Assembly (NCBI GenBank): GCA_030428835.1
Contig: JAUIEP010000001.1
Coordinates: 1-64,000 of the forward strand
DNA from: Gammaproteobacteria bacterium
GTDB lineage: Bacteria > Pseudomonadota > Gammaproteobacteria > Pseudomonadales > Halieaceae
DNA: 64,000 nt
Reading direction: 5' to 3'
The notes beneath the pieces were generated by a model that saw nothing but the letters and a program-made list of their open reading frames with translations, did not search any database and was not told the origin of the DNA. Below are positions 23,787 to 43,601 of this stretch, one piece after another. How positions within the stretch are numbered: position 1 is the stretch's first letter; each line of letters opens with the position of its first letter. Made by a program: the position numbers and the translations under genes.

Positions 23787-25520
23787 ATGACAAAAAAGAA
23801 CAGCAGTACTGTGAGCGCGTCGCTGGAGAACCCTTTTGCCGAAAAAGAGGACCTCCAGTTCAAGGTGCCCGGCCAGATCGCGACGCGCCCGGGCCTCTAC
23901 GAGGAGGCGCTGAAAGAGGGCTGGGAACTGCAGCAGAAGCCGTACATCACCGCCGGCGTGAAGAGCATCCAGCGCCAGCACCAGAAAAACCGCATGACCA
24001 TCTGGGAGCGCATCCGTTACCTGGCGGACGGCGAACCCACTTTCCTCTACCAGAACTGGGGGCCCAACCTCGACGGCGCCTCCCTGGTGACCGCCATCAT
24101 CAAGGTGAACGGCCGCGACGTCGCGCTCTACGGACACGACTTCACGGTGCGTGCCGGCTCCATGGACGCCACCAACGGCGAGAAGCTCGCCCGCCTGTTT
24201 GAACTGGCAGCGCGGCAGCGGATCCCCGTCGTGGGCATCAACGACTCGGCCGGCGCCTTCATTCCCGCCGGCGTCGGAGGCCTCGATGGCTACGCCGAGG
24301 CATTCGCGGCACTGCGCAAGATCTCCGGCGTGGTGCCGAGCATCATGTGCATGTTCGGCTTCAATGCGGGCGGTGGTTCCTACCTGCCGCGGCAGGGCAG
24401 CTTCCTGATCCAGCCGAACGAAACGTTCTTCGGCCTGACCGGCCCCGGTGTGGTGAAGTCGGTGCTCGGCGAGGACATCACCCCCGACGAACTCGGCGGC
24501 CCCGGCGTGCACAGCCAGTCGGGCGTGACGGACTTCGTGGTGCGGGACGAGGTGGCGGCGCTGCGCAAGGTGCGGGCGCTGTTGAACTACCTGCCCAGCT
24601 ACAACGGGGAACTGGCGCCCTACCAGCCGAGCTCGGACCCCGTGGACCGCAAGACCTGGGACATCGATATCCTGCTGAAGAAGGCCTTCAACTCGCCCAC
24701 CGGATTCAACACGCCCATCGATGTGACGATCATCATCCAGCAGCTGTGTGACCACGGCGACTACCTGGAAGTACAGCCCGACCGCGCGCGCAACACCGTG
24801 ACCGCGCTGGGCCGTATCGGCGGCAACGTGGTGGGCTTCGTGGCGAACAACTCCGCCGTTGCCTCCGGCCAGATCGACATCGACGCGGCCTACAAGAATG
24901 CGCGCTTCATCCGCTTCTGCAACCTGTACAACATCCCCGTCATGTTCCTCGAGGACACGACAGGCTTCCTGCCCGGCCGGGAACAGGAGCACGGCGGCAT
25001 CGTGCAGGCGGGCAGGGCCATGCTCGACGCGATCGTGGACCTGCGCACCCCGCGCTTCCTGGTGCTGGTGCGCAACGCTTTCGGGGGCGCGTACGCCGCG
25101 TTCAACAGCATCCCGGTGGGCGCCGACTTCGTGGTGGCGCTGCCCACCACGCGCCTCGCGGTAATGGGCCCGGCCGGCGTCGAATACGTGTACAAGGACG
25201 AATTGCGCAAGATTCGCGGTTCGGTGAAGGACAGGATCGAGGCCGAGACCAGCGCCCAGGTCGACGCCGGGCTGTCGCAGAAAAAGGCCGAGGAGGCCGC
25301 GCGGCAACTGGTCGGCGACTGGGTGAAAGCCGAGGAGGCCAGCCTGGCAAAACGTTACGAGCATGAGCTGATGAACCCGAAAGAGGCGTTGAGCCTCGGC
25401 TCGATCTCGCAAATCGTGATGCCCTCGGAGCTGCGCCAGGTGCTCGCCGAGAACCTCGCCTTTTACCTGCGTCACTACACCCCGGCGCCGCTGCAATCCG
25501 TGCAGCGCGAATTCCACTAA
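23787..25520 (+). CDS. pccB: acyl-CoA (propionyl-CoA) carboxylase carboxyltransferase subunit
   Basis: A 577-residue carboxyltransferase that moves CO2 from carboxybiotin to an acyl-CoA, probably propionyl-CoA since methylmalonyl-CoA mutase follows in the same operon. The two crotonase-like halves carry [14 protein letters not shown] and [12 protein letters not shown] (N-domain) and [18 protein letters not shown] with [11 protein letters not shown] (C-domain). It is longer than typical PccB (about 510), with an N-terminal extension of about 50 residues. The ATG at 23787 follows AAGGA. The biotin protein gene begins 26 bases after its stop. Confidence 0.88.
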
Positions 25521-25546
25521 GCCGCATCGGACAGGAGAAGTCCCGC

Positions 25547-28360
25547 GTGTCCAACGAATACTACCTGAACAACCCGCTCATCCACCGCGATCGCCGACTC
25601 GGTAACGCCGACGCGCACTGGATCAGCCAGTTCTCCTGCGAGCATATCCGCCCGCTGATCATCTGCCGCGGCCCGATCCGCAAGGAGGCGATGGATGTCT
25701 TCAGGGAGATGGGTATCAGCCATTTCGGCATCCTGCTCTCCGAGAAGGATTCCATCGTCTACCGCCACGCGCTCGCGCCGGAGCTGCGCTCCCTGACCAA
25801 TCCCGAGCACGTGCACCGTGTGCCCGATTACACCGGGGCCAACAAGGAGGAGCGCGAGGAGCGGATCCAGCAGATCATCAACATCGCGCAGGACAACGAT
25901 TACAACGCGATTTTCGCCGGTTACGGCTTCATGGCGGAAGACGAAACCATGGTCGCCGCCATGGAAGACGCGGGGCTCAACTTCATCGGCCCGTGCTCGC
26001 GGACGGTGCACGACGCCGGCCTGAAGGACGAGGCCAAGCGAACCGCGCTCAAGTGCGGTGTCTCTGTAACGCCGGGCATCGACAACGGTACCGCACTGAC
26101 GCTGCTCGCCAAGCATCCCGACGTGGCGGCTCTCAAGGCGCTGGCGAAGAAACACGACCTGCGCGTGGAGGGCGACCTCGACGACGCGGACACCAGCCTG
26201 GAGGACAAGGCCGACTGGGTGCTGGCGGCGTCCTACGACAAGGGCATCGACCTGTACACGGTCGACGAACTGGCCGCGACCCTGACCGGGGCCGTCAAGC
26301 GCATGATGGCCGAGTACCCGGAAAACCGGGTGCGTCTCAAGGCCATCAGCGGTGGCGGCGGCAAGGGCCAGCGCATCATGGGTATCGGGCAGGCCGAGCG
26401 CACGCCGGAACTCGTGCGCGAAATTCTCAACGAGGTGAAGACCACGGGCGTCGGCGACAACAAGAACGTCCTCGTGGAACTCAACATCGAGACGACGCGC
26501 CACCAGGAGATCCAGGTGATCGGCAACGGCCAGTGGTGCATGACGCTGGGCGGCCGCGACTGCTCGCTGCAGATGCACGAGCAGAAACTGCTGGAGGTCT
26601 CGGTAACGGTCGAATCGCTGGAGAAGGCCATCACCCAGGCGGAGCGGGCCGGGCAGGCGGAGGAGGCGCGCGTGTTGCGGCAGGACCTCGCCACGCTGAT
26701 CGCCATGGAACAACAGGCGGAAAAATTCGGCGCCGCGGTGGGCCTGGACTCCGTGTCGACCTTCGAATGCATTGTGGACCGCGACAAGCACTTCTTCATG
26801 GAGATGAACACGCGCATCCAGGTCGAGCACCGCGTGACCGAGCTGTGCTACGCCCTCAAGTTCTCCAACCCGGACAAGCCCGGTGAGTCCTTCGTGGTCG
26901 AGTCGCTCGTCGAGGCCATGGTACTGCTCGCCGCGCACGGCGATAAGCTGCCGCGGCCCGAGCGGGTCGTGCGCGAAAACGACAGCGTGGAAGCGCGCCT
27001 GAATGCCACCAACCTCGCATTGCAGCCCCACGCGGGCGGCGTGATCGAGGCGTGGTCCGACGCCTGCGAGGGTGAAATCCGCGACGACCAGGGCATCAGC
27101 CTGCACAACCCTGACACCGACGTGTTCATGAAATACACCCTCGCGGGAGCATACGATTCCAACATCGCGCTGTTGCTGACGGTGGGTGCCACGCGCCTGG
27201 AGACCTACCAGAATATGGCGGAGATCATCCGCCAGACGCGTATGCGCGGCAAGGACCTGGCGACCAATCTCGAGTTCCACTACGGGCTGGTGAACTGGTT
27301 CATCGGCCAGACGGTGAACGCGCGGCCCACCACCCGCTTCATCGTGCCGTACCTCACGGCGGTGGGTGAACTGAAGCAGCGTGCGAACGCCATCGACCTC
27401 GAGTATGCGTACCAGCAGATCTGCGGGCAGGTCCTGGCGGGCGCCGAGGGCAGTGCCCGGGATGCGCTGGCGCAGACGCTGCAGCTCAAGGAGTCGCTCC
27501 TGCTGCGCCCGCTGGAGCGCCTGCTCGAGGAGCCTCACTTCCTCAGCGGCTGGCTCAGTATCAACCGCGACTGTTACACGATGATCGACGGCAAGATCAG
27601 CTGGAACGAGAATCCCATCGAGTTGCTGGCGGATACCTACCATTACCTGAACATGGACTACATACCGGGTGACAAGCCCCCGGCCGCGTCCATGATCTGG
27701 GATCACGACAACGAGATCCTGCAGGACGCGCTCGCTTTCTACGACGAGTTGAACAACAGGCTGGCTGCGCAGGACTGGGTCGAGCTGTGTGACCTGCTGA
27801 GCGACGAGAAACCACCCAGGGGAATCCGGGCGGGACTCTGGAAGCAGATCCGCGGTGCGCATCTGGGCTTCCAGGCCGGTGTGGATATCCTGGCCGCGCT
27901 GCCCTCGATCGCTGAATTCACTGGTTTCTACGACCTGGCGGTCAACCCCGACCTCACGCTGCACATTCCCGAACGCCTCACGCAGAGCGAGCTGCAGGAC
28001 GCCATGGCGAAAGTGCTGGTACCACCGCCCGTGGCCAATTCCGACGAAATCCTGGCGGAGAGCGGCGGCATGTTCTACTCGCGGGAAACACCGGCGCACG
28101 ACAGGTACGTGCAGGCCGGCGATCACTTCGAGGCGGGTGATCCGCTGTTCATCATCGAGGTGATGAAGATGTTCAACAAAGTCTATGCACCGTTCGCCGG
28201 TACGGTGAAGGAGGTGCTCGTGGACACGGACGGCATGATCATTTCGAAGGGCCAGCCGATCTTCAAGATCGAGCCGGACGAGATCGTGGTGGAGGAGTCG
28301 CCCGACGAGGTCGCCGCCCGGCGCCGCGCGGCCACGCAAGAATTCCTGCAGCAGCTGTAA
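25547..28360 (+). CDS. pccA: biotin carboxylase / biotin carrier fusion, 937 residues (probable PccA)
   Basis: An ATP-grasp biotin carboxylase fused to a biotin carrier domain. The glycine-rich ATP loop GGGGKG is at 269-274, the carboxylase signature EMNTRIQVEHRVTE starts at Glu419, and the biotinyl lysine is Lys874 in IIEVMKMFN. It is much longer than typical PccA (about 660-680): there is an extra segment before the ATP loop (about 190-250), a large central region (about 500-830), and a 30-residue charged tail after the carrier domain. With the preceding carboxyltransferase it should form propionyl-CoA carboxylase; another acyl-CoA is possible. It has a GTG start after CAGGAGAAG. Confidence 0.85.
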   Translation: MSNEYYLNNPLIHRDRRLGNADAHWISQFSCEHIRPLIICRGPIRKEAMDVFREMGISHFGILLSEKDSIVYRHALAPELRSLTNPEHVHRVPDYTGANKEEREERIQQIINIAQDNDYNAIFAGYGFMAEDETMVAAMEDAGLNFIGPCSRTVHDAGLKDEAKRTALKCGVSVTPGIDNGTALTLLAKHPDVAALKALAKKHDLRVEGDLDDADTSLEDKADWVLAASYDKGIDLYTVDELAATLTGAVKRMMAEYPENRVRLKAISGGGGKGQRIMGIGQAERTPELVREILNEVKTTGVGDNKNVLVELNIETTRHQEIQVIGNGQWCMTLGGRDCSLQMHEQKLLEVSVTVESLEKAITQAERAGQAEEARVLRQDLATLIAMEQQAEKFGAAVGLDSVSTFECIVDRDKHFFMEMNTRIQVEHRVTELCYALKFSNPDKPGESFVVESLVEAMVLLAAHGDKLPRPERVVRENDSVEARLNATNLALQPHAGGVIEAWSDACEGEIRDDQGISLHNPDTDVFMKYTLAGAYDSNIALLLTVGATRLETYQNMAEIIRQTRMRGKDLATNLEFHYGLVNWFIGQTVNARPTTRFIVPYLTAVGELKQRANAIDLEYAYQQICGQVLAGAEGSARDALAQTLQLKESLLLRPLERLLEEPHFLSGWLSINRDCYTMIDGKISWNENPIELLADTYHYLNMDYIPGDKPPAASMIWDHDNEILQDALAFYDELNNRLAAQDWVELCDLLSDEKPPRGIRAGLWKQIRGAHLGFQAGVDILAALPSIAEFTGFYDLAVNPDLTLHIPERLTQSELQDAMAKVLVPPPVANSDEILAESGGMFYSRETPAHDRYVQAGDHFEAGDPLFIIEVMKMFNKVYAPFAGTVKEVLVDTDGMIISKGQPIFKIEPDEIVVEESPDEVAARRRAATQEFLQQL

Positions 28361-28372
28361 CAAGGATATCCC

Positions 28373-30529
28373 ATGAGTGACAAGATCTATGACAAGTCCG
28401 CCGCAACCCCGGACGCCTGGGCGGAACTGGCCGGCAAGCAGCTGAAAGGCCGCAGCCCGGACGAGCTGACCTGGCAGACTCCCGAGGATATCCCGGTAAA
28501 GGCGCTGTATACGGCGGCCGACACGCAGGGGCTCGAGTACACCGACACCATGCCCGGCATGTCGCCCTATATTCGCGGTCCGCAGGCAACGATGTATGCC
28601 GGTCGTCCCTGGACCATCCGCCAGTACGCGGGATTCTCCACCGCGGAGGAGTCGAACGCCTTCTACCGCAAGGCCCTCGCGGCCGGCGGCCAGGGTATTT
28701 CCGTGGCCTTCGACCTCGCGACGCACCGCGGCTATGACTCCGACCACCCGCGGGTCACCGGCGATGTCGGCAAGGCCGGCGTCGCGATCGACTCGGTGGA
28801 GGACATGAAGATCCTGTTCGACGGCATCCCACTCGACCAGGTCTCGGTATCCATGACCATGAACGGCGCCGTCTTGCCGGTCCTCGCGGGCTACATCGTC
28901 GCCGCCGAGGAACAGGGCGTCAGCCAGGAGCAACTCGCGGGCACCATCCAGAACGACATCCTGAAAGAGTTCATGGTGCGCAATACCTACATCTACCCAC
29001 CCGCCCCGAGCATGAAGATCATCGGCGACATCATCGCCTTCTGTTCCGCCAACATGCCGCGCTTCAACACGATCTCGATCTCCGGCTACCACATACAGGA
29101 AGCCGGTGCGAACGCCGCGCTGGAACTCGCTTACACGCTTGCCGACGGCAAGGAGTACATCCGCACCGCTATCGCCGCGGGCCTCGATATCGACGACTTC
29201 GCGCCGCGCCTGTCGTTCTTCTGGGGCATCGGCATGAACTTCTACATGGAGATTGCGAAGATGCGCGCCGCGCGCCTGTTGTGGGCGCGCATCGTGGGTG
29301 AATTCAACCCGGCGAACCCGAAGAGTTCGATGCTGCGGACCCACAGCCAGACCTCGGGCTGGTCCCTCACCGCGCAGGACCCGTACAACAACGTCGTGCG
29401 CACGACCATCGAAGCCATGGCGGCCGTGTTCGGCGGCACCCAGTCGCTGCACACGAACGCGCTCGACGAGGCGATCGCGTTGCCGACGGAGTTCTCCGCG
29501 CGTATTGCGCGCAATACGCAGCTCATCATCCAGGAGGAGACCGGTATCACCAAGGTGGTCGATCCCTGGGGCGGTTCCTACCTGATGGAGAATCTCACGC
29601 AGGACATCGCCGACAAGGCCTGGGAGCTGATCCAGGAGGTCGAGGACGCGGGCGGCATGGCCAAAGCCATCGAGACCGGTATGCCCAAGCTGCGCATCGA
29701 GGAGGCCGCCGCGCGCAAGCAGGCGCGTATCGATCGCGGTGACGACATTATCGTGGGCGTCAATAAGTACCGGACGGATGCCGAGGACGAGATGGATATC
29801 CTCGAAATCGACAACGAGGCCGTGCGCAAGGCGCAGGTCGAGCGCCTCGCGAGTATTCGCGCAGGGCGGGACGAGGCTGCGGTAGAGGCTATACTCGAGG
29901 AGATTTACCAGTGCGCGGTAAGCGGTGAGGGCAACCTGCTCGAGCTCAGCGTTGAGGCGACGCGCCGCCGCGCCACCGTCGGGGAGATTTCTTTCGCCAT
30001 GGAACGAGAGTTCGGCCGCTTCAATGCCCAGGCGCAGACCGTGTCCGGTGTGTACGGCAGTGCCTTCGCACAGGACGAGGACTGGCAGTCCATCGCGGCC
30101 GACATCGAAGCGTTCGTCGACAAGCACGGCCGCCGGCCGCGCATGTTGGTGTGCAAGATGGGCCAGGACGGCCACGACCGCGGCGCCAAGGTGGTTGCGA
30201 CGGCCTTCGCCGACGTCGGTTTCGATATCGACCTGTCGCCCATGTTCTCCACGCCGGAGGAAGTCGCCCGGCAGGCCATCGAGAACGACGTGCACGTGGT
30301 GGGCGCGTCCTCCCTGGCGGCGGGGCACAAGACCCTCGTGCCGCAGCTCGTCGAGGAACTGAAGAAACAGGGCGCCGGGGATATCGTCGTCATAGCCGGC
30401 GGCGTGATACCGAAGCAGGACTACGAACACCTCTACGCCGCCGGCGTAAAATGCATTTTCGGGCCCGGTACGCCGATTCCCGTCAGCGCTCGCGAGGTGC
30501 TGGACGCCATCGGTGCAGCCCAATCCTGA
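28373..30529 (+). CDS. scpA: methylmalonyl-CoA mutase, single-chain form
   Basis: A 718-residue B12 enzyme that interconverts methylmalonyl-CoA and succinyl-CoA. The TIM barrel has [20 protein letters not shown] and [19 protein letters not shown] near the start, and the C-terminal cobalamin domain has His601 in [10 protein letters not shown] as lower cobalt ligand. The first ~50 residues (Asp/Trp-rich) are the extension usual in this class. It follows the biotin protein by 12 bases with an AAGGA site, and is followed by a MeaB chaperone. No methylmalonyl-CoA epimerase gene is nearby, although one is normally needed between carboxylase and mutase. Confidence 0.95.
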
Positions 30530-30572
30530 GTCGCGGCCGCGCATGCCCGGCCCACGGTATGGCTAGAGTGCC

Positions 30573-31535
30573 GTGACGTCTGTCGTCGATGTTGACCTGC
30601 TGAAGGCGGGAAACCGCCGGGCCCTGGCCAAGGCCATCACGCTTGTCGAGAGCAAGCTCGACGCACACCGTGAGCAGGCGCAGGCCGTCCTCGAGTCGGT
30701 CCTGCCGGAGACCGGCAACAGCATCCGCATCGGTATCACGGGCGTGCCGGGTGTCGGCAAATCCACCTTTATCGAAGCGTTCGGGCTGCACCTCATTGCG
30801 CAGGGCAAGCGCGTCGCGGTGCTCGCCGTTGACCCCAGTTCGCCGATCGCGGGAGGCTCCATCCTGGGCGACAAGACGCGGATGGAAGAGCTGTCGCGCA
30901 GGGAGGAGGCCTTCATCCGGCCCTCGCCGTCCGAGGGCGCGCTGGGCGGTGTGGCGCAGAAAACGCGCGAGACGATGTTGCTGTGCGAGGCCGCGGGTTA
31001 TGACGTCATACTCGTCGAGACGGTCGGTGTGGGCCAGTCGGAGTTCCAGGTCGCCGGCATGGTGGACTTTTTCATGGTGCTCATGCTGCCGGGCGGTGGC
31101 GACGAACTGCAGGGCATCAAGAAGGGGATCATGGAACTCGCCGACGCGCTGGTGATCAACAAGGCGGACGGCGAGAGCGAGTCACTGGCCACCATGACCC
31201 AGCGCCAGTACACGAGCGCCATGAACCTGTTGCGCCATACGACGTTCTGGACACCGCGTGTGCTCACGTGTTCCGCGCTCAATAACGTGCGAATCGACAG
31301 CGTCTGGGGCATGGTCGTGGACTACTACCTGCAGTCGGAGAAGGAGGGTGCCTTCAGTCACAAGCGCGCCCAGCAGAACCGCGACTGGATGCACCAGCTT
31401 ATTCGCGAAATGCAGCTTCTGAAACTGACCCGTAACGATGCGGTGCGCAAACTGCTCCCCGAGCTCGAACGCCAGGTGCAGGAGCGCAAAATCACGGCCT
31501 ACGCCGCCGCGCGGCAGGTCATGTCCCATCTCTAG
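30573..31535 (+). CDS. meaB: MeaB-type G-protein chaperone of methylmalonyl-CoA mutase
   Basis: A 320-residue P-loop GTPase. Walker A is GVPGVGKST (57-65), followed by [20 protein letters not shown] (switch region), ETVGVGQSE (Walker B) and VINKADG (base recognition, NKAD). MeaB proteins load and protect the B12 cofactor of the adjacent mutase. It has a GTG start 43 bases after the mutase gene. The C-terminal region with [15 protein letters not shown] is the usual dimerisation arm. A second, more diverged MeaB lies with the other mutase in this cluster. Confidence 0.93.
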
Positions 31536-31549
31536 CGGTAGCGCCGATC

Positions 31550-31873
31550 ATGCGATTCTTTCCGTTGGAAAAGCTGATCAACCTGCACGATGGCTACACC
31601 GCGCAATTCAGGATCGACCACCTGCAGCTGCTGCTGTTCCAGCGCGCGGGAGAGTTGCACCTGATCGAGGCCACGTGCCCGCATCGCGGCCATTCCCTCG
31701 GCGTGGGCGATATCCGCGACGGCGTGATCCGCTGCGCGCAGCACGGCTACCAGTTCGCTGTCGACGACGGCCGCCTGCTGCTGGCGACCGAGGAAGCCTG
31801 CCGCGGGCTGCGCACTTTCCCTATCGTCTACGAGGGCAACGAGGTCGGCATCCTGCTGGATGACGGCCCCTGA
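31550..31873 (+). CDS. Rieske [2Fe-2S] ferredoxin-like protein
   Basis: A 107-residue single-domain Rieske protein. Cluster ligands are Cys43 and His45 in CPHRGH and Cys62 and His65 in CAQHG, the standard C-x-H ... C-x-x-H pattern. It should carry one electron, as partner of an oxygenase or reductase that is not visible here. It begins 14 bases after meaB and is the last plus-strand gene of the carboxylase/mutase unit, converging on the lyase gene. Its place in a B12-enzyme operon hints at a role in reactivating oxidised cobalamin, but this is speculation. Confidence 0.88.
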   Translation: MRFFPLEKLINLHDGYTAQFRIDHLQLLLFQRAGELHLIEATCPHRGHSLGVGDIRDGVIRCAQHGYQFAVDDGRLLLATEEACRGLRTFPIVYEGNEVGILLDDGP

Positions 31874-31910
31874 GCCTGCGGCCTGCGCGGGGTTCCCGGA
31901 GGCGTTACCG

Positions 31911-32963
31911 TCAGTCGGCCTTGTACAACTCCCGGTAGTCGGGGTCCTTGCCCGCGATCATCTCGGCCAGTTCCACCATCACGCGGCACTGCTTCCAGGA
32001 TGCGTCGTCCTGCATCTTCCCGTCCACCATCACGGCGCCGGAACCGTCGGGTAGCGCCGCCAGCACCCGGCGCGCCCAGGCGACCTCGTCCGGCGGCGGG
32101 CTGAACACGCGTTTGGCGATGTCGATCTGGCTGGGGTGCAGTGACCATGCGCCCACGCAGCCCATGAGGAAGGCGTTGCGGAACTGGTCCTCGCAGCCGA
32201 CCGGGTCGTCGATCGCGCCGAACGGGCCGTAGAAGGGCAGGGCACCCACGGCGACGCAGGCGTCGACCATGCGGGCCATGGTGTAGTGCCACAGGTCCTG
32301 CTGGTGCGTCTCGCGGGGCCCCTCGGGGTTGTCGGGAGCCGGGTCGTCCCGCACGAGGTAGCCTGGGTGGCCGCCGCCGATACGCGTGGTTTTCATGCGC
32401 CGCGACGCCGCGAGGTCCGCGGGTCCCAGGCTCATGCCCTGGATGCGCGGGCTCGCGTTGGCGATCTCCTCGACGTTGGCCACGCCCAGCGCGGTCTCGA
32501 GCAGGCAGTGCAGCTGGATGGGGCGCGTGAGGCCGGCGCGGGCCTCGAGCTGCGCCAGGAGCTGGTCGGCGTAGTGGATATCCCAGGCGCCCTGGATCTT
32601 CGGCAGCATGATGACGTCCACCTTGTCTCCCGCGCGGGTGACGATCTGCGTAATGTCGTCCAGGAACCACGGGCTGTCGAGGCTGTTGACCCGCGTCCAG
32701 AGCTGGGTATCGCCGAAGTCGGTCTTGTTCGCGATGTCGATGAACCCCTCCCGCGCGGCCTCCTTGTTGTCGATCGCGATGGCGTCCTCGAGGTTGCCGA
32801 GGATGATATCGACCCGGGCGGCGATGGCGGGGACCTTCTCCGCCATCTTGGGATTGCTCGGGTCGAAGAAGTGGATCATGCGCGAGGGACGCACGGGGAT
32901 CTCCCGCAGGGGTTCCGGTGCGCCCAGTGCGAGGGGGCGGAAAAAGTCTTTCGGGCTGCGCAT
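31911..32963 (-). CDS. mcl1: CitE-like L-malyl-CoA/beta-methylmalyl-CoA lyase
   Basis: A 350-residue TIM-barrel CoA lyase. It should split beta-methylmalyl-CoA into glyoxylate and propionyl-CoA and may also act on malyl-Co[18 protein letters not shown] is the acidic metal and CoA region, [15 protein letters not shown] has the conserved Glu, and [17 protein letters not shown] closely follows the malyl-CoA lyase pattern. [15 protein letters not shown] is the usual C-terminal motif. It has a good AGGAGAAC site 18 bases after the second meaB. It is the last gene of the minus-strand operon, consistent with the final step of the ethylmalonyl-CoA route. Confidence 0.85.
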
Positions 32964-32981
32964 GGTGTTCTCCTGGAGTGA

Positions 32982-33962
32982 CTATTGGTCCTGTTGCAGG
33001 GCGTTTGTGATCTCGGCGCACAGGGCGCGGTACTCGCTCAGCGGGTCGGCTGTTTTCGCATTCAGTCGGGCCAGCAGCGCCTCACTGCCGCCCAGCCTGT
33101 CGAGGCCGCGCTGGCCGAAGTCCGCCAGCAGGCGTTTCTCGAGCCAGTGCGCCTGGTGCCGCCGCCTTCGTGCCTCGAGGTCCGGCGCGATCTGCTCGCG
33201 GTGGGCGGCAAACGCATCGGCCAGCGCCTCGATGCCCTCGCCGCGACTCGCGCTGGCGAGCAGCACGGGAATGTCCCAGCCGCCATCGGCGTGTTCGCCC
33301 GCCAGCGCGCCGAGCAGCTCGCTGTGTGCGCGCCGCGCGGTTTCACCCATGTCCGACTTGTTCACCACCAGGACATGGGGTACCTCGAGTATACCGGCCT
33401 TCAGGAACTGGATGCTGTCGCCCGAGCCCGGTTGCGCGACAAAACAGGTCGTGTCGGCGCTGTGCGCGATGTCGATCTCGCGCTGGCCGACGCCGACGGT
33501 CTCGATCAGCACGACATCGTTGGCGGCGAGCATGGCGATGCTCATCGGCCAGACTTCCGCGCTCAACCCGCCGAATTCGCCGCGGCTCGACAGCGAGCGG
33601 ATGAAGACGCCGTCGTCGGCGGGGTCGACCTGCATGCGCAGGCGGTCCCCGAGCAGGGCGCCGCCGGTGACGGGACTCGAGGGGTCGACCGCGAGGACAC
33701 CGACGCGCAGGCCGCGCCGCCGCCACGTCGCGATCAGGGCGGAGCTCAGCGTGGATTTGCCGACCCCGGGCGGCCCCGTGATGCCGATGAGGTGGCCGCG
33801 CGACAATACGCCGTCGGCGAGCAGGGCGGCCAGTAGCGCGCCGGATCGTTCGATCGCCGCGGAACGCTGGTCATCGAGTTGGTTGAGCGCCTCGGCGAGT
33901 GCGCCGCGCTCACCTGCCAATAATCGTTGCGCCAGTGTGGCCGGCGCGGTGTCAGGCGGCAC
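32982..33962 (-). CDS. meaB: second MeaB-family GTPase, partner of the ethylmalonyl-CoA mutase
   Basis: A 326-residue P-loop GTPase. Walker A is GPPGVGKST (63-71). [20 protein letters not shown] and ETVGVGQRE are the switch and Walker B regions, and VVNKSDMG holds NKSD. It is clearly a MeaB/ArgK family member, but distinct from the one at 30573. The GTG start lies 11 bases inside the end of the mutase gene, so the chaperone and its likely client are made together. Having one MeaB per mutase suggests client specificity. Confidence 0.92.
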   Translation of the reverse strand: MPPDTAPATLAQRLLAGERGALAEALNQLDDQRSAAIERSGALLAALLADGVLSRGHLIGITGPPGVGKSTLSSALIATWRRRGLRVGVLAVDPSSPVTGGALLGDRLRMQVDPADDGVFIRSLSSRGEFGGLSAEVWPMSIAMLAANDVVLIETVGVGQREIDIAHSADTTCFVAQPGSGDSIQFLKAGILEVPHVLVVNKSDMGETARRAHSELLGALAGEHADGGWDIPVLLASASRGEGIEALADAFAAHREQIAPDLEARRRRHQAHWLEKRLLADFGQRGLDRLGGSEALLARLNAKTADPLSEYRALCAEITNALQQDQ

Positions 33963-35952
33963 TGTCCAGACCGTGGCTGTCGCGGATAATCTCCACCATG
34001 CGCGCCATGATCGTGTTCATGTCGATATCCTTGGGCGTGAACACGTCGGCGACACCGCGCTTGCGCAGGACCTGCTCGTCCTCCTGCGGGATGATGCCGC
34101 CAACGACGAGCGGTAAGTGCCCGAGGCCGAGCTGCTCCAACTCACAGTAGATATCCTCGACCAGCTCCATGTGGCTGCCGGACAGCACGGAAAGTCCGAT
34201 GAGATGGACGCCTTCCTCCTGCGCCGCCCTGGCGATCTGTGCGGGGGTCAGGCGAATGCCCTCGTAGACCACTTCAAAGCCCGCGTCGCGAGCTTTTACC
34301 GCGATTTGCTCGGCGCCGTTGCTGTGGCCGTCCAGGCCCGGCTTGCCGATGAGCAGGCGCAGCGGGCGACCGACGGCCTCGCCGGTCGCGTGTACGCGCT
34401 CGCGCACGGCGGCGAGTGCGTCGCCGGAGCCGCCCGCCTTGCCCGAGAAGTCGACCCCGGTGGGTGCGCGGTACTCGCCGAAGACATCCCGCAGGACCTG
34501 GCTCCACTCTCCGGTGGTCACGCCGGCCCTCGCGCACGCGATGGAGGCGGGCATGATGTTGGTGCTCCCCGTGGCGGCGGCGCGCAGGTCGGCCAGCGCC
34601 GCGTCTACTTCACCCTGGTTGCGCTGGGCGCGAAAGCGTTCGAGCGCGGCGACCTGTTCGCGCTCCGCGCCCTCGTCCACCTTGAGGATGCCGGAATCGT
34701 CCTCCGAGGTGAGCGGCGAGTCCGCGGTCTGTTTGAAGCAGTTGACGCCGACAATCTGCAGGTCGCCGTTCTCGATGGCGCGAATGCGCGCGGTGTGGCT
34801 CTGCACCAGTTCGCGTTTCACGTGCCCGTTATCGATGCAGGCGACCATGCCCCCGAGGTCCTCGATACGCGCCATTTCCTCGCGGGCCCCGTCGATCAGC
34901 GACTGCACCTTGGCCTCTACCACCGGCGAGCCGTCGAGCAGGTCGCCGTACTCCAACAGATCCGTTTCAAACGCGAGCACCTGCTGCATGCGCAGGGCCC
35001 ACTGCTGATCCCAGGGGCGCGGCAGTCCCAGGGCCTCGTTCCAGGCGGGTAACTGGATCGCGCGCGCCCGCGCGCCCCTGGACAGCGTGACGCCCAGCAT
35101 CTCCAGCACGATGCGCTGCACGTTGTTCTCCGGTTGCGACTCGGTCAGTCCGAGCGAATTGACCTGTACCCCGTAGCGGAAACGTCGCAGCTTGGGGTTC
35201 TGCACGCCGTAGCGCCGCGCGGTGATCTCGTCCCACATGCGCACGAAGGCGCGCAGCTTGCACGTCTCCTCCACAAACCGGATGCCGGCATTGACGAAGA
35301 AGGAGATGCGCCCGACAACCTCCTCGAAGCGCTCCTCCCCGACCTGCCCCGAGTCGCGCACCGCGTCGAGGATCTCGATGGCGGTCGAGAGGGCGTACGC
35401 CAGTTCCTGGGTGGGGGTCGCCCCCGCCTCCTGCAGGTGGTAGGAACAGACGTTCGTCGGGTTCCACTTCGGGATATTGTCGACGGTGTAGGCGATGAGA
35501 TCCGTGGTCAGGCGCACGGAGGGTTCCGGCGGGAAAATATAGGTGCCGCGGGACAGGTACTCCTTGAGGACGTCGTTCTGCGTCGTGCCCTGCAGCGCGG
35601 ATGGGTCCGCGCCCTGTTTCTCGGCGACGGCGATGTACAGGGCCAGCAGCCACGGCGCCGTTGCGTTGATGGTCATCGAGGTGTTCATGCGGTCCAGGGG
35701 GATCTGGTCGAACAGGATCGCCATGTCGCCGATATGGTCGATGGGCACGCCGACCTTGCCGACTTCGCCCCGGGCGAGCGGGTGGTCCGAGTCGTAACCG
35801 GTCTGCGTGGGGAGGTCGAAGGCCACGGAGAGCCCCGTCTGGCCCTTGGACAGGTTCGTGCGGTAGAGCTCGTTCGAGGCCCGGGCGGAGGAGTGCCCGG
35901 AATAGGTGCGCATCAGCCAGGGGCGATCGCGCTCGGTGCCTTGCTCACTCAC
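33952..35952 (-). CDS. ecm: ethylmalonyl-CoA mutase (MeaA type)
   Basis: A 666-residue B12 mutase expected to convert ethylmalonyl-CoA to methylsuccinyl-CoA. It begins DRPWLMRTYSGHSSARASN and GQTGLSVAFDLPTQTGYDSD, which are hallmarks of Ecm/MeaA and differ from the methylmalonyl-CoA mutase at 28373 ([10 protein letters not shown] there). NVCSYHLQEAGATP and GRISFFVNAGIRFVEE also follow Ecm. The C-terminal cobalamin domain has His543 in GLDGHSNGAE. The start is GTG at 35952, with AAGGAG upstream and a 4-base GTGA overlap with the hydratase stop. Isobutyryl-CoA mutase is less likely: its large subunit normally lacks a fused B12 domain. Confidence 0.9.
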   Translation of the reverse strand: MSEQGTERDRPWLMRTYSGHSSARASNELYRTNLSKGQTGLSVAFDLPTQTGYDSDHPLARGEVGKVGVPIDHIGDMAILFDQIPLDRMNTSMTINATAPWLLALYIAVAEKQGADPSALQGTTQNDVLKEYLSRGTYIFPPEPSVRLTTDLIAYTVDNIPKWNPTNVCSYHLQEAGATPTQELAYALSTAIEILDAVRDSGQVGEERFEEVVGRISFFVNAGIRFVEETCKLRAFVRMWDEITARRYGVQNPKLRRFRYGVQVNSLGLTESQPENNVQRIVLEMLGVTLSRGARARAIQLPAWNEALGLPRPWDQQWALRMQQVLAFETDLLEYGDLLDGSPVVEAKVQSLIDGAREEMARIEDLGGMVACIDNGHVKRELVQSHTARIRAIENGDLQIVGVNCFKQTADSPLTSEDDSGILKVDEGAEREQVAALERFRAQRNQGEVDAALADLRAAATGSTNIMPASIACARAGVTTGEWSQVLRDVFGEYRAPTGVDFSGKAGGSGDALAAVRERVHATGEAVGRPLRLLIGKPGLDGHSNGAEQIAVKARDAGFEVVYEGIRLTPAQIARAAQEEGVHLIGLSVLSGSHMELVEDIYCELEQLGLGHLPLVVGGIIPQEDEQVLRKRGVADVFTPKDIDMNTIMARMVEIIRDSHGLDSAA

Positions 35953-37136
35953 GGCTGGCTCCTTGCATGCGGTGCTTTGCGGATGAGGAGGCGGCGCTCG
36001 ATCTCGAAGATCTTGTCGCCGATCTTGTCCTTGCCGAGACCGCGCTTGCTGTCTTCCTTGAGGAAAAGGTCGGCGCCGTGCCGCTCCAGCGCCTCGCGGG
36101 CGCTGATATTCTTGACGCCCACGAGTTGCATCGTAACGATGCCGCAGCCGGGCGTTTCTTCGGGCTCCTCGGTCGCCAGGATGCGCGTGAGCGCGCCCAC
36201 GGTGTCGCCGGCGAACGCGGGCTGCGTGTGGTAGCCCTCGGTGAAGCCCAGCTCCCACACGGCGTGCTCGGTGACGTCGCGGCTGGCCAGCCCGTCCAGC
36301 CAGGCGAATACCAGGCCGCCGTAGACGATGGGTTCGCCGCTCATCTTCCCGGACAGTCCGCTGGAGTAGACGCGGTCGAAGTGCAGCGGGTGGCTGTTGC
36401 CGACGAGGTAGGTGAGCGCCATGTGCTCCTCGGTGATCGTCCGGCCGTTGCTGTGCACGATGATCTGGCCCGGCGCGAAGTCCTCGAAATAGGTGTTGGG
36501 TCCGGTGAGGCCGACGAAGGCATCGCTGGGCGAGTAGGGCAGCTCCAGGGTGGGTGACGCCTCGCCCGGAAAGGTGCCGTTGAACGCCGGTGCCGGGGTT
36601 GTCGGGAGGCGCTCGCCGCGCCAGCCGACGAAGATCTTGCGCTCGTATTGCAGCACCACGCGGTCATCCTGGTTCACTCCCACCGTACGGATCCGCGCGA
36701 TCCCGGGTTTGTCGGGACCGCGGTCCTTGCGTTCGAGTACTTGCGTGAACGCGCGCAGCGTGTCGCCGGGGTAGACCGGCGCGAGGAACTGCACCTGGTA
36801 GTAGCCGAGGTTGGCGATGGCCTTTTCCGAATCGTTCTGTACTCCCAGCGAGAGGGTGACATTGAACACCATCTGCGGGCTGGCGAGCAGGTCGCTGAAC
36901 CCGTGCGCGACCGCGTAGTCGCGGTTCAGGTAGAGCGGGTTGGCCTGCATGTAGGTGCGGGCGAAGTTGAGCATGTTGCCGCGGGTGAAGGTGTACCCGC
37001 GGGGGTGCTCGAATACCTGCCCGGGGTCGAGTTCGTCGAGGTAGCGGCCGTACTGCGGGAAGCTTGCGCGCTCGACGTCGATTGCGGCGTCGGGAGCGAG
37101 TTCCCGCTGTGCCGACAGTGGCAGGCGGATGCTCAT
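35949..37136 (-). CDS. mch: mesaconyl-CoA hydratase, double MaoC domain
   Basis: A 395-residue protein with two hot-dog folds. The first half has ANLGYYQVQFLAPVYPGDTL, the second HPLHFDRVYSSGLSGKMSG, IVYGGLVFAWLDGLASR and PAFAGDTVGAL. This double-MaoC plan with both GDT motifs is that of mesaconyl-CoA hydratase, which forms beta-methylmalyl-CoA from mesaconyl-CoA. It is somewhat longer than the alphaproteobacterial enzyme (about 345) by an N-terminal ~40-residue extension and a basic tail. It overlaps the genes on both sides by 4 bases. Another enoyl-CoA hydratase role is possible, but its place between the dehydrogenase and Ecm supports this call. Confidence 0.83.
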   Translation of the reverse strand: MSIRLPLSAQRELAPDAAIDVERASFPQYGRYLDELDPGQVFEHPRGYTFTRGNMLNFARTYMQANPLYLNRDYAVAHGFSDLLASPQMVFNVTLSLGVQNDSEKAIANLGYYQVQFLAPVYPGDTLRAFTQVLERKDRGPDKPGIARIRTVGVNQDDRVVLQYERKIFVGWRGERLPTTPAPAFNGTFPGEASPTLELPYSPSDAFVGLTGPNTYFEDFAPGQIIVHSNGRTITEEHMALTYLVGNSHPLHFDRVYSSGLSGKMSGEPIVYGGLVFAWLDGLASRDVTEHAVWELGFTEGYHTQPAFAGDTVGALTRILATEEPEETPGCGIVTMQLVGVKNISAREALERHGADLFLKEDSKRGLGKDKIGDKIFEIERRLLIRKAPHARSQP

Positions 37137-38812
37137 GCGGCCTGCTCGACGAGTGCGCGGGTAATGACCTTCAGCGCCAGTGTCTCCTCCGCGCCTTCAA
37201 AGATCGACAAGACGCGGGCGTCGACGAAATAGCGGCTGACCGGTGTCTCTTCGGCGTAACCCATGCCGCCGTGGATCTGCAGGGCCTCGCGGGTGAACCA
37301 CTCCGCTGTGCGGCTGGCGAAGAGTTTCGCCGCACTGGCCTCCATGTCGCCCGCCCCCGTGTCCATCAACGCGGCCACGTCGTAGGTGATATGGCGACAG
37401 GCCAGCAGTACGGCGGCCATCTTCGCCAGCTTCACGCGCGTCAGTTGATACTCGCCGATAGCCTGGCCGAAAACGACGCGCTCCTTGGCGTAGGAAATGG
37501 AGCGCTCGAAGGCGGCGCGCATCACGCCGACCGCGCGGGCGGCCGTCTGGATGCGACCGCCGGCGAAGCCCGCCATGGCCGCGTAGAAGCCCTTGCCCTC
37601 GCCGTCCGGGCCGCCCAGCAGGTTCTCGGCGGGCACGAAGAAGTCATCGAAAAACAATTCGAACGAGTGCATCCCGCGATAGCCGAGCGTCGCGATGGCG
37701 CGCCCTGTCAGCTTGCCCTTGTCCTGCTTCACCTCGAAGGCGTGCCCCCCCGTCGAGGGCTTCTCGACCAGGAACATCGACAGCCCCTTGTGCGCGGGAC
37801 GGGCGTCGGCGTCCGTGCGCGCCAGCACCATGAGCACGCCGGCCTTGCCGCCGAAGGTGCACCAGGTCTTGGCGCCGTTAAGGAGGTAGCCGCCCTCCGT
37901 CGCGGTGGCCTTCAGGCTCACGCCGGCCACGTCGGAGCCGTAGTTGGGCTCCGTTACCGCCACCGCGCACAGTGGCTCGCCCACGGCCAGTTGCGGCAGC
38001 CAGTGCTGCTTCTGTTCCTCGCTGCCACCCTTGAGCAGCGCCCGGGCGAGGATTTCGGGCCGGGTGATGAGGCTGCCGGCCGCACCCAGCGAACCGCGCG
38101 ACAGCTCCTCTGTCACCACGATCATGCCGAGGGTGTCTTCCTCGTCGTTCTCCTGCAGGCCGCCGTAGCTCTCCGGAATCGACAGGCCGAACAGTCCCAT
38201 TTCCTTGAGCGGCTCGATGATTTCGTCGGGTATGTCGAGATCCTCGCGGTGCACGGACTCGGCGAGTGGCGCCACGACCGAGTCCGCGAAACGGCGGAAG
38301 GTGGCGCGCATCATGCTGTGGTGTTCACCGAGCAGGTCGGGACCCAGGTCGCCGTCGCGTTGCAGCACGGCGTCGCCCAGTGCGCCCATGTGCTGTGCCG
38401 CCAGGTTGCGGGCGAGGAATGTCGCGGCGGCCGGTGCGTCGGACACGCCGTCGATGTCTGCCCGGTCCAGGCCGTAATCCGCGGGTCGAGCGCGCAACCG
38501 CGCCAGCGTGTTGTTGACCGCCTCCGCGGTGAACAACGCCGCCAACTCTGTCACCAGGTCGTCGCGGGAGGTCTCAACGAGCCTGCGTGCGTGCTGCAGG
38601 AAAAAACGCGCCGCCGTGCACTCCGCCCAGGACAGCGACAATTCGTAGGAAACCAGCTGCCGCGCATCGAGGCGCGCGGCCGATACCTTGCCGTCTGTTG
38701 TGCAGGATGACTTCAGTGCTGAAAAGGCCTTGTCCAGCAGGGCGCTGGTGGTGGCGAGCAGCGTGTCCGCGTTGTCGAGCAGCTGCCCGTCACCCGTTGA
38801 GAGGTCAGTCAT
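37133..38812 (-). CDS. mcd: methylsuccinyl-CoA dehydrogenase (acyl-CoA dehydrogenase with N-terminal extension)
   Basis: A 559-residue acyl-CoA dehydrogenase expected to oxidise methylsuccinyl-CoA to mesaconyl-CoA with FAD. The catalytic core starts near residue 165 (MMRATFRRFADSVVAPLAE), with AVTEPNYGSDVAG, WCTFGGKA and the C-terminal QIHGGMGYAEE and IFEGAEE. The extra ~165 helical residues at the N-terminus are characteristic of methylsuccinyl-CoA dehydrogenase. It is the first gene of the minus-strand operon and overlaps the hydratase start by 4 bases (ATGA). The leader of the operon contains spaced repeats that may bind a regulator. Confidence 0.87.
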   Translation of the reverse strand: MTDLSTGDGQLLDNADTLLATTSALLDKAFSALKSSCTTDGKVSAARLDARQLVSYELSLSWAECTAARFFLQHARRLVETSRDDLVTELAALFTAEAVNNTLARLRARPADYGLDRADIDGVSDAPAAATFLARNLAAQHMGALGDAVLQRDGDLGPDLLGEHHSMMRATFRRFADSVVAPLAESVHREDLDIPDEIIEPLKEMGLFGLSIPESYGGLQENDEEDTLGMIVVTEELSRGSLGAAGSLITRPEILARALLKGGSEEQKQHWLPQLAVGEPLCAVAVTEPNYGSDVAGVSLKATATEGGYLLNGAKTWCTFGGKAGVLMVLARTDADARPAHKGLSMFLVEKPSTGGHAFEVKQDKGKLTGRAIATLGYRGMHSFELFFDDFFVPAENLLGGPDGEGKGFYAAMAGFAGGRIQTAARAVGVMRAAFERSISYAKERVVFGQAIGEYQLTRVKLAKMAAVLLACRHITYDVAALMDTGAGDMEASAAKLFASRTAEWFTREALQIHGGMGYAEETPVSRYFVDARVLSIFEGAEETLALKVITRALVEQAA

Positions 38813-38928
38813 TAGTGCTTACCGCCTGTGTTGGTCTGCGCGCCCGTAGCCGGTCGGCTGGGCGCGCAATCGGTTTAACGATTCAAACCGGAAATTTTAA
38901 GGCTTACCCCCGCCGGAGACAACCAAGG

Positions 38929-38978
38929 GCGGTCACGAAACCCGTTAATCCCGGTCATTGATGCTGTTAATAGCGGTC
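38929..38978. promoter_or_regulatory. three phased repeats between mcd and the CitE-like gene
   Basis: GTTAATCCCGGTC at 38944-38956 and GTTAATAGCGGTC at 38966-38978 agree at 11 of 13 positions. A third partial copy, GCGGTC, ends at 38934. The three (G/C)CGGTC ends are exactly 22 bases apart (38934, 38956, 38978), about two turns of the helix. They lie in the 243-base region from which both the mcd operon and the CitE-like gene diverge, so a shared regulator site is plausible. The region otherwise has no gene. Confidence 0.5.
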
Positions 38979-39055
38979 GCCTTGCCCGTGCGTCGGCCGC
39001 TTCTGTATGCTTGCGGTCCCCACATTCGCAGGTTTTTTTCTGAGGTAGACACCAC

Positions 39056-39928
39056 ATGGACATACGACCCCGTCGCTCGCTGTTGTACATGCCCGGCTCC
39101 AATGCCCGGGCCCTGGAGAAGGCGCGCAGCCTGCCCGCGGACGGCCTGATCCTCGACATGGAGGATTCGGTCGCGCCGGACGCCAAGCAGACGGCGCGCG
39201 AGCAGATCGGCGCCGCCATCGGGGAGGGTGGCTACGGTCACCGTGAACTGATGGTGCGGGTCAATGCGCTGGCCACCCAGTGGGGCGGCGACGATATCGC
39301 CGCTGTCGCATCGTGGCAGCAGGCGCCCGACGCGCTGCTGATACCCAAGATCGACACGGCGGAGGATGTCCGCGAGGCCGTCGCCGCGTGTGACGCCGCG
39401 GGCATCCCCGGTACGGTTGCGATCTGGATCATGACCGAGACGCCGGCCTGCATACTCAACATCGCCTCAGTGGCTGCGGCGCACCCGCGCCTGCGGGGGA
39501 TGGTCATGGGCACCTCCGACCTCTCGAAAGACACGCGCGTGCGCCACACGCGCGACCGTCTCGGGTTTATCACGGCACTCAACCTGTGCGTGTACGCCGC
39601 GCGCGCCAACGGCCTGGATATCATCGACGGCGTGCAGCTCGACCTCGAGGACGAGGAACTCCTGCGCTACTCCTGCGAGCAGGGCCGCGACCTCGGGTTC
39701 GACGGCAAGAGTCTGATTCACCCGAAGCAGGTGGCCGCCGCCAACGAGGTCTTCGCCCCCAGCGAGGCGGAGATCACCGCCGCCCGCGAGATCATCGCGG
39801 GATTCGAGGCCGCCAAGGCGGAGGGCAAGGGCGTGGTGGTCGTCAACGGCCGCCTCGTCGAAAACCTGCATGTGGAGGAAGCGGGGCGGCAGCTCGCGCT
39901 CGCCGAGGCCATCGCTGCCCTCGGATAA
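39056..39928 (+). CDS. mcl2: CitE-like protein, probable (S)-malyl-CoA thioesterase
   Basis: A 290-residue CitE-family protein. RRSLLYMPGSNARALEKAR, LILDMEDSVAPDAK and RVNALATQWG match the first strands, MTETPACILN has the conserved Glu, and GMVMGTSDLSKDTR precedes SLIHPKQVAAANE. It is shorter than the lyase at 31911 and nearer to the Mcl2 group, which hydrolyses malyl-CoA to malate and CoA at the end of the ethylmalonyl-CoA pathway. A citrate-lyase beta or other CitE lyase role is possible; there is no citrate lyase alpha or gamma gene here. It diverges from the mcd operon and has a GAGGT site. Confidence 0.78.
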   Translation: MDIRPRRSLLYMPGSNARALEKARSLPADGLILDMEDSVAPDAKQTAREQIGAAIGEGGYGHRELMVRVNALATQWGGDDIAAVASWQQAPDALLIPKIDTAEDVREAVAACDAAGIPGTVAIWIMTETPACILNIASVAAAHPRLRGMVMGTSDLSKDTRVRHTRDRLGFITALNLCVYAARANGLDIIDGVQLDLEDEELLRYSCEQGRDLGFDGKSLIHPKQVAAANEVFAPSEAEITAAREIIAGFEAAKAEGKGVVVVNGRLVENLHVEEAGRQLALAEAIAALG

Positions 39929-39943: not shown

Positions 39944-40418
39944 TCAGATGTGGAGCGAGCGCAACTCCACGTCGCGCGTGGCGTGGCGCCACAGGTCCTC
40001 GAACAGGTCCGCGTGGCGCTGCGCTGACGCCCGCGAGTCCGGTTCGTAGAAGGCGTGCTCCTCGCTGCCGCCGGGTCGGTACAACACGCCGTCCCGGTCC
40101 CGGATCACGATGGTTTCCCCGCGCCAGTCCGGGTGTTCGGGCAGCTTCCGCAGTTCCACCTTGCTCGGCGTGCGCCGGGACAGTTGCAGCAGCCGGTGGC
40201 CGCGACCGACGATGTGCCGGGCGTCCTGCAGCAGTATGCGGATTTTGGTCTGCCGGCTGTCCCTGGCGAGCGCGGCGATCGCGCCCGCCAGCTCCTCGTT
40301 GTCGAACACCGCGTGGTCAAGCGTGGGACTCAGGATGCAGAGGTAGCGCGCGGCAGACCGGGCCAGTGCAACGCAGTATTCGTCGAAAGGGTGGGGATAG
40401 GTTATCCCCGTTGTGAAC

Positions 40419-40432
<14 letters not shown>
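39944..40432 (-). CDS. conserved protein of unknown function, RoxA neighbour (DUF7931-like)
   Basis: A 162-residue protein. The central part, ARYLCILSPTLDHAVFDN, then IRILLQDARHIVGRGHRLL and RDRDGVLYRPGG, gives an alpha/beta pattern with some likeness to phospholipase D-type domains, but no HKD motif is present. Similar small proteins sit next to acetyltransferase or cupin genes in Pseudomonas; I recall the DUF7931 label for them with only moderate certainty. The ATG at 40432 lies 14 bases inside the roxA gene, so it is translationally coupled to it. No function is assigned. Confidence 0.5.

Positions 40433-43601
<3,169 letters not shown>

Follow-up and report, generated by a model that had tools for sequence, protein, structure and literature searches.

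The ethylmalonyl-CoA (EMC) pathway is known from Rhodobacter, Methylorubrum, Paracoccus and Streptomyces, and an unusual use of its enzymes has been reported in Rhodospirillum rubrum, which grows on butyrate without ccr although it requires nearly every other EMC enzyme (PMC7238569). Growth of R. rubrum on butyrate was explained by a side activity of propionyl-CoA carboxylase (PCC) on butyryl-CoA (32.2 μmol/h/mg with butyryl-CoA vs 358 with propionyl-CoA), a precedent for a Ccr-less butyrate route (PMC7238569). Here we describe a locus from the Halieaceae (gammaproteobacteria; assembly GCA_030428835.1, contig JAUIEP010000001.1) in which a cassette of EMC genes adjoins an acyl-CoA carboxylase. 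The window, by which we mean the whole stretch of DNA analyzed, comprises the first 64 kb of this 128.5-kb contig, and the assembly totals 5.23 Mb with a completeness of 99.98% and a contamination of 3.06%. Our proposal, which we hold to be about evenly balanced between right and wrong, is that the cassette converts ethylmalonyl-CoA into glyoxylate plus propionyl-CoA and that its substrate arises from butyryl-CoA, most likely through the adjacent carboxylase, which would replace Ccr.

All ten genes that a preliminary description, made from the letters of the window, had assigned to this region were found where it put them, and profile and structure-database matches bear out their family memberships (Table 1). 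A plus-strand block at 23787-31535 encodes the carboxyltransferase (CT) and biotin carboxylase (BC) subunits of the carboxylase, methylmalonyl-CoA mutase (MCM) and a MeaB GTPase. The minus-strand operon mcd-mch-ecm-meaB2-mcl runs from 38812 down to 31911, with mcl2 diverging from it on the plus strand, and is tightly packed: mcd/mch and mch/ecm each overlap by 4 bp and ecm/meaB2 by 11 bp, with a gap of just 18 bp between meaB2 and mcl.

The ethylmalonyl-CoA mutase (Ecm) does not place with isobutyryl- or methylmalonyl-CoA mutases, the outcome that the preliminary description had set against its own assignment. References were Ecm sequences from Ruegeria (meaA, two genes from ccrA), Paracoccus, Methylobacterium and Streptomyces, compared with five MCMs, and diagnostic positions were defined as the 89 alignment columns that are constant in each set but differ from one set to the other. 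The window protein displays the Ecm state at 81 of these columns, the MCM state at four and another residue at four, and is 63–65% identical to the four reference Ecm rows. In the tree, all 15 Ecm rows cluster together (100/99), apart from the five MCM rows, which form a group of their own (100/100); a partial Ecm row, L182, was excluded. Within the Ecm group, the gammaproteobacterial group stands beside Streptomyces with weak support (86/74). Judged by tree and diagnostic positions, the window mutase is a true Ecm, and on the same grounds methylmalonyl-, isobutyryl- and hydroxyisobutyryl-CoA mutase were ruled out. A conserved substrate-site Arg was dropped as an argument for Ecm because other mutase rows share it. 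The 768-aa open reading frame listed for Ecm is overcalled at its start, the protein that aligns with other Ecms being 666 aa from a GTG at 35952. A third B12-dependent mutase in the genome (L129/L199, G000 contig 165) is divergent and distant from both MCM and Ecm. In the next enzyme of the route, Mcd, Arg252, Arg376, Arg421 and Glu535 (Paracoccus numbering) are retained, the three Arg residues being reported to bind the substrate carboxylate and the Glu to be catalytic in the Paracoccus enzyme (PMC5798300).

Absence of ccr, which the preliminary description had treated as decisive against its pathway, is what the genome displays. The best match to the Ccr model scores 76.5 bits vs a cut-off of 378.55, and 0/140 family genomes pass that cut-off, while the model does pass in 1/14 control genomes and in a related genome, G011 (565 bits); on this basis a Ccr merely missed by the search was rejected. 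The claim that C2 units are assimilated without the glyoxylate bypass is not supported, as contig 277 encodes an isocitrate lyase of 535 aa (NF005074, 1072.7 bits, cut-off 446; below the TIGR01346 cut-off). An isocitrate lyase match is found in 127/140 family genomes and in 23 of the 24 that are Ecm-positive, and a glyoxylate cycle has been reported in six Halieaceae isolates (PMC10100682). The cassette is therefore no substitute for the glyoxylate bypass, and the co-occurrence of a post-Ccr module with isocitrate lyase in marine gammaproteobacteria implies a different use for the pathway or a different way into it.

Comparable genes occur in other gammaproteobacterial families. Outside the Halieaceae, this type of Mcd was found in 13 genomes, only one of which (G011) has Ccr over the cut-off; ecm lies beside mcd in the fetched stretch of nine, and eight of those nine are without Ccr, two of the eight being <90% complete. 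G011 (81% complete; L182 1-7523) carries ecm-mch-mcd, a DUF6986 gene and ccr together, with ccr ~2 kb from mcd and the DUF6986 gene in the interval, and is the only genome found with Ccr over the cut-off beside ecm-mch-mcd; a DUF6986 gene also lies before mcd in L030 and L033. Ccr-like reductase domains also occur in L131-L135 and 43 more family genomes, none of them in the window's genus, mostly in frames of ~1,800 aa that, by length and domain, probably represent propionyl-CoA synthase. Matches to the related reductase model were recorded in 48/140 family genomes, mostly inside very long frames; the window genome has no match to that model at E 1e-30, an indirect negative for propionyl-CoA synthase.

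A change in the CT acyl pocket of the cassette-bearing relatives suggests a different way into the pathway. Aligned rows from cassette-positive and cassette-negative family genomes (positive/negative: CT 25/60, BC 17/57, MCM 16/54, MeaB 11/45) contain 290, 318, 373 and 114 positions, respectively, that are invariant in the negatives. Replacement in every positive row was observed at three positions, all in CT: T174A, N441S/G and Y442F/H/I/V. The chance that three randomly placed invariant sites all fall in CT is 0.018. In these counts G219 and G223, first scored as cassette-negative, stand as positives, since the cassette is cut off by the contig end in each of them (mcl is present in both and meaB2 in G219), and G222, with a positive-type CT and a cassette status that could not be assigned, was left out. 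When the comparison was confined to the same 70 genomes for CT, BC and MCM (16 positive, 54 negative) with a change threshold of 60% of positives, seven CT positions invariant in the negatives were found changed in 75–100% of positives (174, 178, 438, 439, 441, 442 and 444), compared with 0/327 such positions in BC and 0/373 in MCM. Positions 253 and 439 of CT separate the groups in this matched set and not in the full set; at 439, the negative G134 has Phe.

All seven changed positions fall in two short stretches near acyl-pocket residues. One directly follows Ala437, at the position equivalent to Asp422 of ScPccB, a residue reported to influence acyl-CoA preference in PCCs (PMC7835884); Ala occupies this specificity position in all 16 rows shown in the alignment, and Asp was not encountered there. 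The other begins at residue 174, five positions after Tyr169, the counterpart of Tyr143 in PCC chain 6ybp. The 169-aligned residue differs, together with Asp407, between chain 6ybp and chain 6ybq, the latter presumably an engineered variant. The location of the changed sites beside 437 and 169 adds to the case made by their concentration in CT, but the 437 loop was the first to be inspected, on the strength of the literature. Among ten other clades or genera (3–15 CT rows each), CT separators never fall inside these two stretches, and in several of these controls separators are more numerous in BC, MCM or MeaB than in CT, so that separators as such are not rare. In the trees of CT and of BC+MCM, respectively, the stem of the positive clade measures 0.11 and 0.037; comparison stems are 0.22/0.19 for genus g82 and 0.28/0.28 for g72, with rows and models differing between the trees.

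Homology and gene order point to the following route. Butyryl-CoA from fatty acids, butyrate or polyhydroxybutyrate would react with CO2 and ATP to give ethylmalonyl-CoA, most likely on the core biotin carboxylase next to the cassette, and the product would then be epimerized, although no epimerase is present among the ten genes scanned (NCBIfam, Pfam; no genome-wide epimerase search was made). Ecm, served by its own MeaB, would convert ethylmalonyl-CoA to methylsuccinyl-CoA, which Mcd would oxidize to mesaconyl-CoA and Mch hydrate to β-methylmalyl-CoA. Cleavage by Mcl would yield glyoxylate and propionyl-CoA; glyoxylate would be joined with acetyl-CoA to give malate by Mcl and Mcl2, and propionyl-CoA would be taken to succinyl-CoA by the neighboring carboxylase and MCM. 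C4 acyl units would in this manner feed the C4-acid pool in addition to the glyoxylate bypass, without replacing it. The proposal draws its support from the identity of Ecm, the retained Arg and Glu residues of Mcd, the tight operon, the absence of Ccr, the presence of isocitrate lyase and the CT changes; the carboxylase step is its least certain part. In its fuller, evolutionary form it states that a Halieaceae clade retuned a core propionyl-CoA-type carboxylase for butyryl-CoA through changes in the two pocket stretches and gained Ecm-Mcd-Mch-Mcl, thereby acquiring a Ccr-independent EMC route beside the glyoxylate bypass, and this form we advance tentatively, its chances falling somewhat short of even.

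Ecm is present in 24/140 family genomes and in 15/18 of the window's genus (the window genome included), and the named loci nearest to the window cassette are those of Halioglobus and Halieaceae (a Halioglobus-like genome). The carboxylase locus was fetched from 15 genomes scored Ecm-negative, two of which (G219 and G223) proved to have cassette genes at the end of a contig. In 12 of the 13 cassette-negative loci, DUF7931, roxA and/or purB come after the MCM-side MeaB gene and the interval is free of cassette genes, although it can hold up to ~5.5 kb of other sequence; the remaining negative locus, G225, has its far flank outside the fetched stretch. In the two positive loci of this comparison, the cassette sits between MeaB and the DUF7931/roxA/purB side. 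The 16 positive rows constitute one clade in the BC+MCM tree of 70 genomes (SH-aLRT 99); G136, with a genus label common to four positive genomes, one of them in the tree, falls outside it. With the site empty in relatives and the carriers in one clade, a single gain inside the family followed by inheritance would be the simplest reading. The transfer suggested in the preliminary description is thus partly supported, whereas a recent arrival in this genome was ruled out by the presence of purB and roxA beside the cassette in 13/15 named loci (72–78% Mcd identity; the other two stretches end too near). The cassette behaves as a unit, and its six genes recur together in other contexts in families f32 (G031) and f13.

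Mcd is 54% identical to PDB 8ciw (585 bits) and 41% to 6es9 (296 bits), and its N-terminal extension aligns with both. 6es9 is the Paracoccus enzyme, in line with the residue numbering of a published Mcd study (PMC5798300), and 8ciw originates from Pseudomonas migulae. Among the papers listed, one names P. migulae, for another part of a synthetic cycle (PMC10521660), and none had a title concerning the 8ciw enzyme. The Mcd clade, of 23 rows, unites gammaproteobacteria, 8ciw and four plasmid sequences (two from Betaproteobacteria, one from an unknown host and one from Sphingobium) and is sister to three alphaproteobacterial rows including 6es9. The plasmid dehydrogenases of this clade (L162-L165) adjoin genes for a CoA-transferase, a racemase, a MaoC protein or a CitE-type protein, their surroundings contain no annotated mutase, and they are possibly enzymes for substituted succinates. 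Mch is distant from its plasmid homologues (28–36% identity to the best 30 of 194), and its closest solved structure is 4e3e (130 bits). Mcl is nearer to 4l7z (500 bits) than to 4l9y (229 bits); 4l7z and 4e3e are Chloroflexus enzymes and 4l9y is the Rhodobacter enzyme. Neither Mcl nor Mcl2 reaches an NCBIfam cut-off, and their functions were assigned by homology.

Several observations weigh against a butyryl-CoA carboxylase feeding this cassette. The carboxylase is core to the family, with a CT match at E 1e-150 or better in 131/140 genomes and 28/28 genera, by which a CT/BC gain specific to the EMC module was ruled out; CT/BC adjoins MCM and MeaB in the family loci examined. As the Ecm-positive Halieaceae are one clade, the cassette and the pocket change amount to a single coincidence in time, and up to four other acyl-CoA carboxylase CT genes in the genome could act on butyryl-CoA. 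G054, a genome of another family and the sole outside genome tested, has the cassette, no Ccr and, on another contig, a carboxylase block with the same left-hand neighbors (5′-nucleotidase, LysR, HAD, pabB) and a CT 73% identical to that of the window. Its CT shows the positive state at 438, 439 and 441 (3/7) and the negative state at 174, 178, 442 and 444, which makes it weak support for a link between pocket and cassette. The positive state at 441 may moreover be ancestral, since the ordinary PCC 6ybp also has Ser there. Downstream, the methyl pocket of Mcd departs from that of the Paracoccus enzyme, Ala285 and Phe287 being replaced by Val and Glu380 by Ser (residue roles as reported in PMC5798300); other rows of the clade, including the G011 copy beside ccr, have Val/Ile at the 285 and 287 equivalents and Ser at 380. 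Finally, 4/13 outside genomes carry Mcd of this type with no ecm in the fetched stretch, and one stretch, L053 of G142, has mcd, ecm and meaB2 with no mch, mcl or mcl2 seen. G142 is also without an isocitrate lyase match.

The alternative that survives best, which we nonetheless consider unlikely, is metabolite repair: carboxylases would make ethylmalonyl-CoA from butyryl-CoA by mistake, and the cassette would oxidize it to glyoxylate and propionyl-CoA with no net assimilation. PCC side activity on butyryl-CoA is on record (PMC7238569), mammals are reported to have a decarboxylase, ECHDC1, for the same purpose (PMC6717113, PMC8473548), C2 assimilation is already covered by isocitrate lyase and the cassette is patchy in the family (24/140). 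Six genes, including a dedicated MeaB and a lyase, would however be a costly means of repair, and the changed carboxylase pocket speaks for a product that is of use to the cell, though raised promiscuity is another possible meaning. Repair shares its reactions with assimilation by way of a butyryl-CoA carboxylase, and sequence cannot separate the two.

Degradation of methylsuccinate, ethylmalonate or branched dicarboxylates, either imported or derived from isoprenoid alkanes, appears improbable. The gene neighborhoods of the four plasmid Mcd relatives described above would suit it, as would the 4/13 outside genomes in which Mcd occurs with no ecm in the fetched stretch and the use of methylsuccinate reported for Pseudomonas itaconate clusters (PMC12290011). 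Beyond pabB, at 17176-19323 on the plus strand, lies a protein of 715 aa that ends in an acetyl-CoA hydrolase/transferase domain (PF13336; C-terminal domain), is weakly similar to butyryl-CoA:acetate CoA-transferase models and could be enlisted for the same reading. This protein is, however, 12.6 kb away, the cassette contains no CoA-transferase, CoA-ligase or transporter, and Ecm, needless for methylsuccinyl-CoA, nevertheless belongs to this operon and is present in the 24 family genomes and 9/13 outside genomes.

We see only a slim chance that the CT pocket changed for reasons that have nothing to do with the cassette, such as drift or another substrate, and that ethylmalonyl-CoA is supplied by a different carboxylase of the genome. 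The single clade, the other CT genes and the partial agreement in G054 would fit such a scenario; seven changes in two stretches, one of them directly after the specificity position, with no equivalent in BC, MCM or the ten control clades, argue against it. It is very unlikely that the classical EMC pathway is complete here, its Ccr having escaped the search or given way to a distant medium-chain reductase: the module is the post-Ccr part of that pathway and G011 has ccr beside the same genes, but the best Ccr match lies far below the cut-off in a 99.98% complete genome, 0/140 family genomes pass a model that does pass in 1/14 controls and G011, and isocitrate lyase is present.

The remaining features of the locus are collected in Table 1. 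Pfam detects the CT and BC domains, yet both proteins score below every curated NCBIfam cut-off, marking them as divergent "PCC" subunits, and BC has no match at E 1e-60 in the plasmid collection. In the 937-aa BC protein, the biotin carboxylase domain is seemingly broken by insertions, and ~250 aa without a Pfam match precede the carrier domain. The G+C content is 0.635–0.650 at 24–32 kb vs 0.664–0.691 at 32–40 kb. A promoter and terminator scan gave results near chance, with one σ70-like match in the mcd-mcl2 gap vs 0.5 expected.

Table 1. Features of the carboxylase block, the EMC cassette and their flanks, with positions in the window
Feature	Position	Strand	Evidence or remark
CT, carboxyltransferase subunit of core acyl-CoA (propionyl-CoA type) carboxylase, 577 aa	23787..25520	+	Pfam PF01039, 362.8 bits
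CT residues 174-178, first changed stretch	24306..24320	+	174 T→A in all positives; 178 K→R in 75%
CT residues 438-444, second changed stretch, directly after Ala437	25098..25118	+	
BC, divergent biotin carboxylase + biotin carrier (BCCP) subunit, 937 aa	25547..28360	+	Pfam biotin carboxylase pieces, Biotin_lipoyl
MCM, methylmalonyl-CoA mutase	28373..30529	+	NCBIfam NF006944, 1289.4 bits (cut-off 876); MCM group of tree
MeaB GTPase adjoining MCM	30573..31535	+	NF006958, 480.1 bits (cut-off 329)
Rieske [2Fe-2S] protein, 107 aa, between MCM-side MeaB and mcl	31550-31873	+	Pfam PF00355, 43.1 bits
Mcl, predicted malyl-CoA/β-methylmalyl-CoA lyase	31911..32963	-	PDB 4l7z, 4e-149
Second MeaB (meaB2), cassette member	32982..33962	-	TIGR00750, 244.2 bits (cut-off 240.75)
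Ecm, ethylmalonyl-CoA mutase, 666 aa, GTG start	33952..35952	-	Diagnostic positions and tree
Mch, double-MaoC mesaconyl-CoA hydratase	35949..37136	-	Pfam PF19315 MC_hydratase, 67.5 bits (cut-off 26.5)
Mcd, methylsuccinyl-CoA dehydrogenase with N-terminal extension	37133..38812	-	PDB 8ciw, 1.5e-174, 54% identity
mcd/mcl2 divergent intergenic region	38813..39055	.	Weak σ70-like match, - strand, 38922-38894
Mcl2, CitE-like, (3S)-malyl-CoA-thioesterase-like	39056..39928	+	Homology
Right flank: DUF7931, roxA/JmjC, purB	39944..43192	-	

The enzymes themselves are of known kinds. Among the matches listed from the open-licence literature, we found no description of a Ccr-less EMC module in isocitrate-lyase-bearing gammaproteobacteria or of a carboxylase pocket co-varying with an EMC module, and no report of the EMC pathway in Halieaceae. 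Were the proposal correct, the locus would provide a biotin-dependent butyryl-CoA carboxylase with natural before-and-after sequences, directly testable, and, by the reaction scheme, cells growing on fatty acids or storage polymer would fix two CO2 for each butyryl unit. Such a carboxylase would also be useful in those synthetic CO2-fixing cycles in which Ccr is employed at present.

Four described systems invite comparison. The itaconate/methylsuccinate clusters of Pseudomonas and Cupriavidus similarly bring together a methylsuccinyl-CoA dehydrogenase, a hydratase and a CitE-type lyase; they are reported to act on C4-CoA esters and to carry a CoA-transferase and MmgE/PrpD, and the word "mutase" is absent from the text of both papers (PMC12290011, PMC9875883). 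Neither a CoA-transferase nor MmgE/PrpD is among the cassette genes here, the 715-aa protein being the sole CoA-transferase-domain protein found nearby. The 3-hydroxypropionate bicycle of Chloroflexus supplies the closest solved structures for Mcl (4l7z) and Mch (4e3e), but Ecm and Mcd are not known to be part of that bicycle. The EMC pathway itself is matched by the Ecm group, by an Mcd with the N-terminal extension and, as far as homology indicates, by the functions of Mch, Mcl and Mcl2, here with the carboxylase and MCM alongside; the differences are the lack of a Ccr over the cut-off, the presence of isocitrate lyase, the confinement to one compact locus, an Mcd from a sister clade and an Mcl nearest to 4l7z. 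With the Ccr-independent butyrate use of R. rubrum, the locus shares the downstream EMC enzymes and PCC as the proposed source of ethylmalonyl-CoA (PMC7238569). R. rubrum is reported to have Ccr, to need it on acetate and to be without isocitrate lyase (PMC7238569), whereas the Halieaceae have no Ccr over the cut-off and a carboxylase with a changed pocket.

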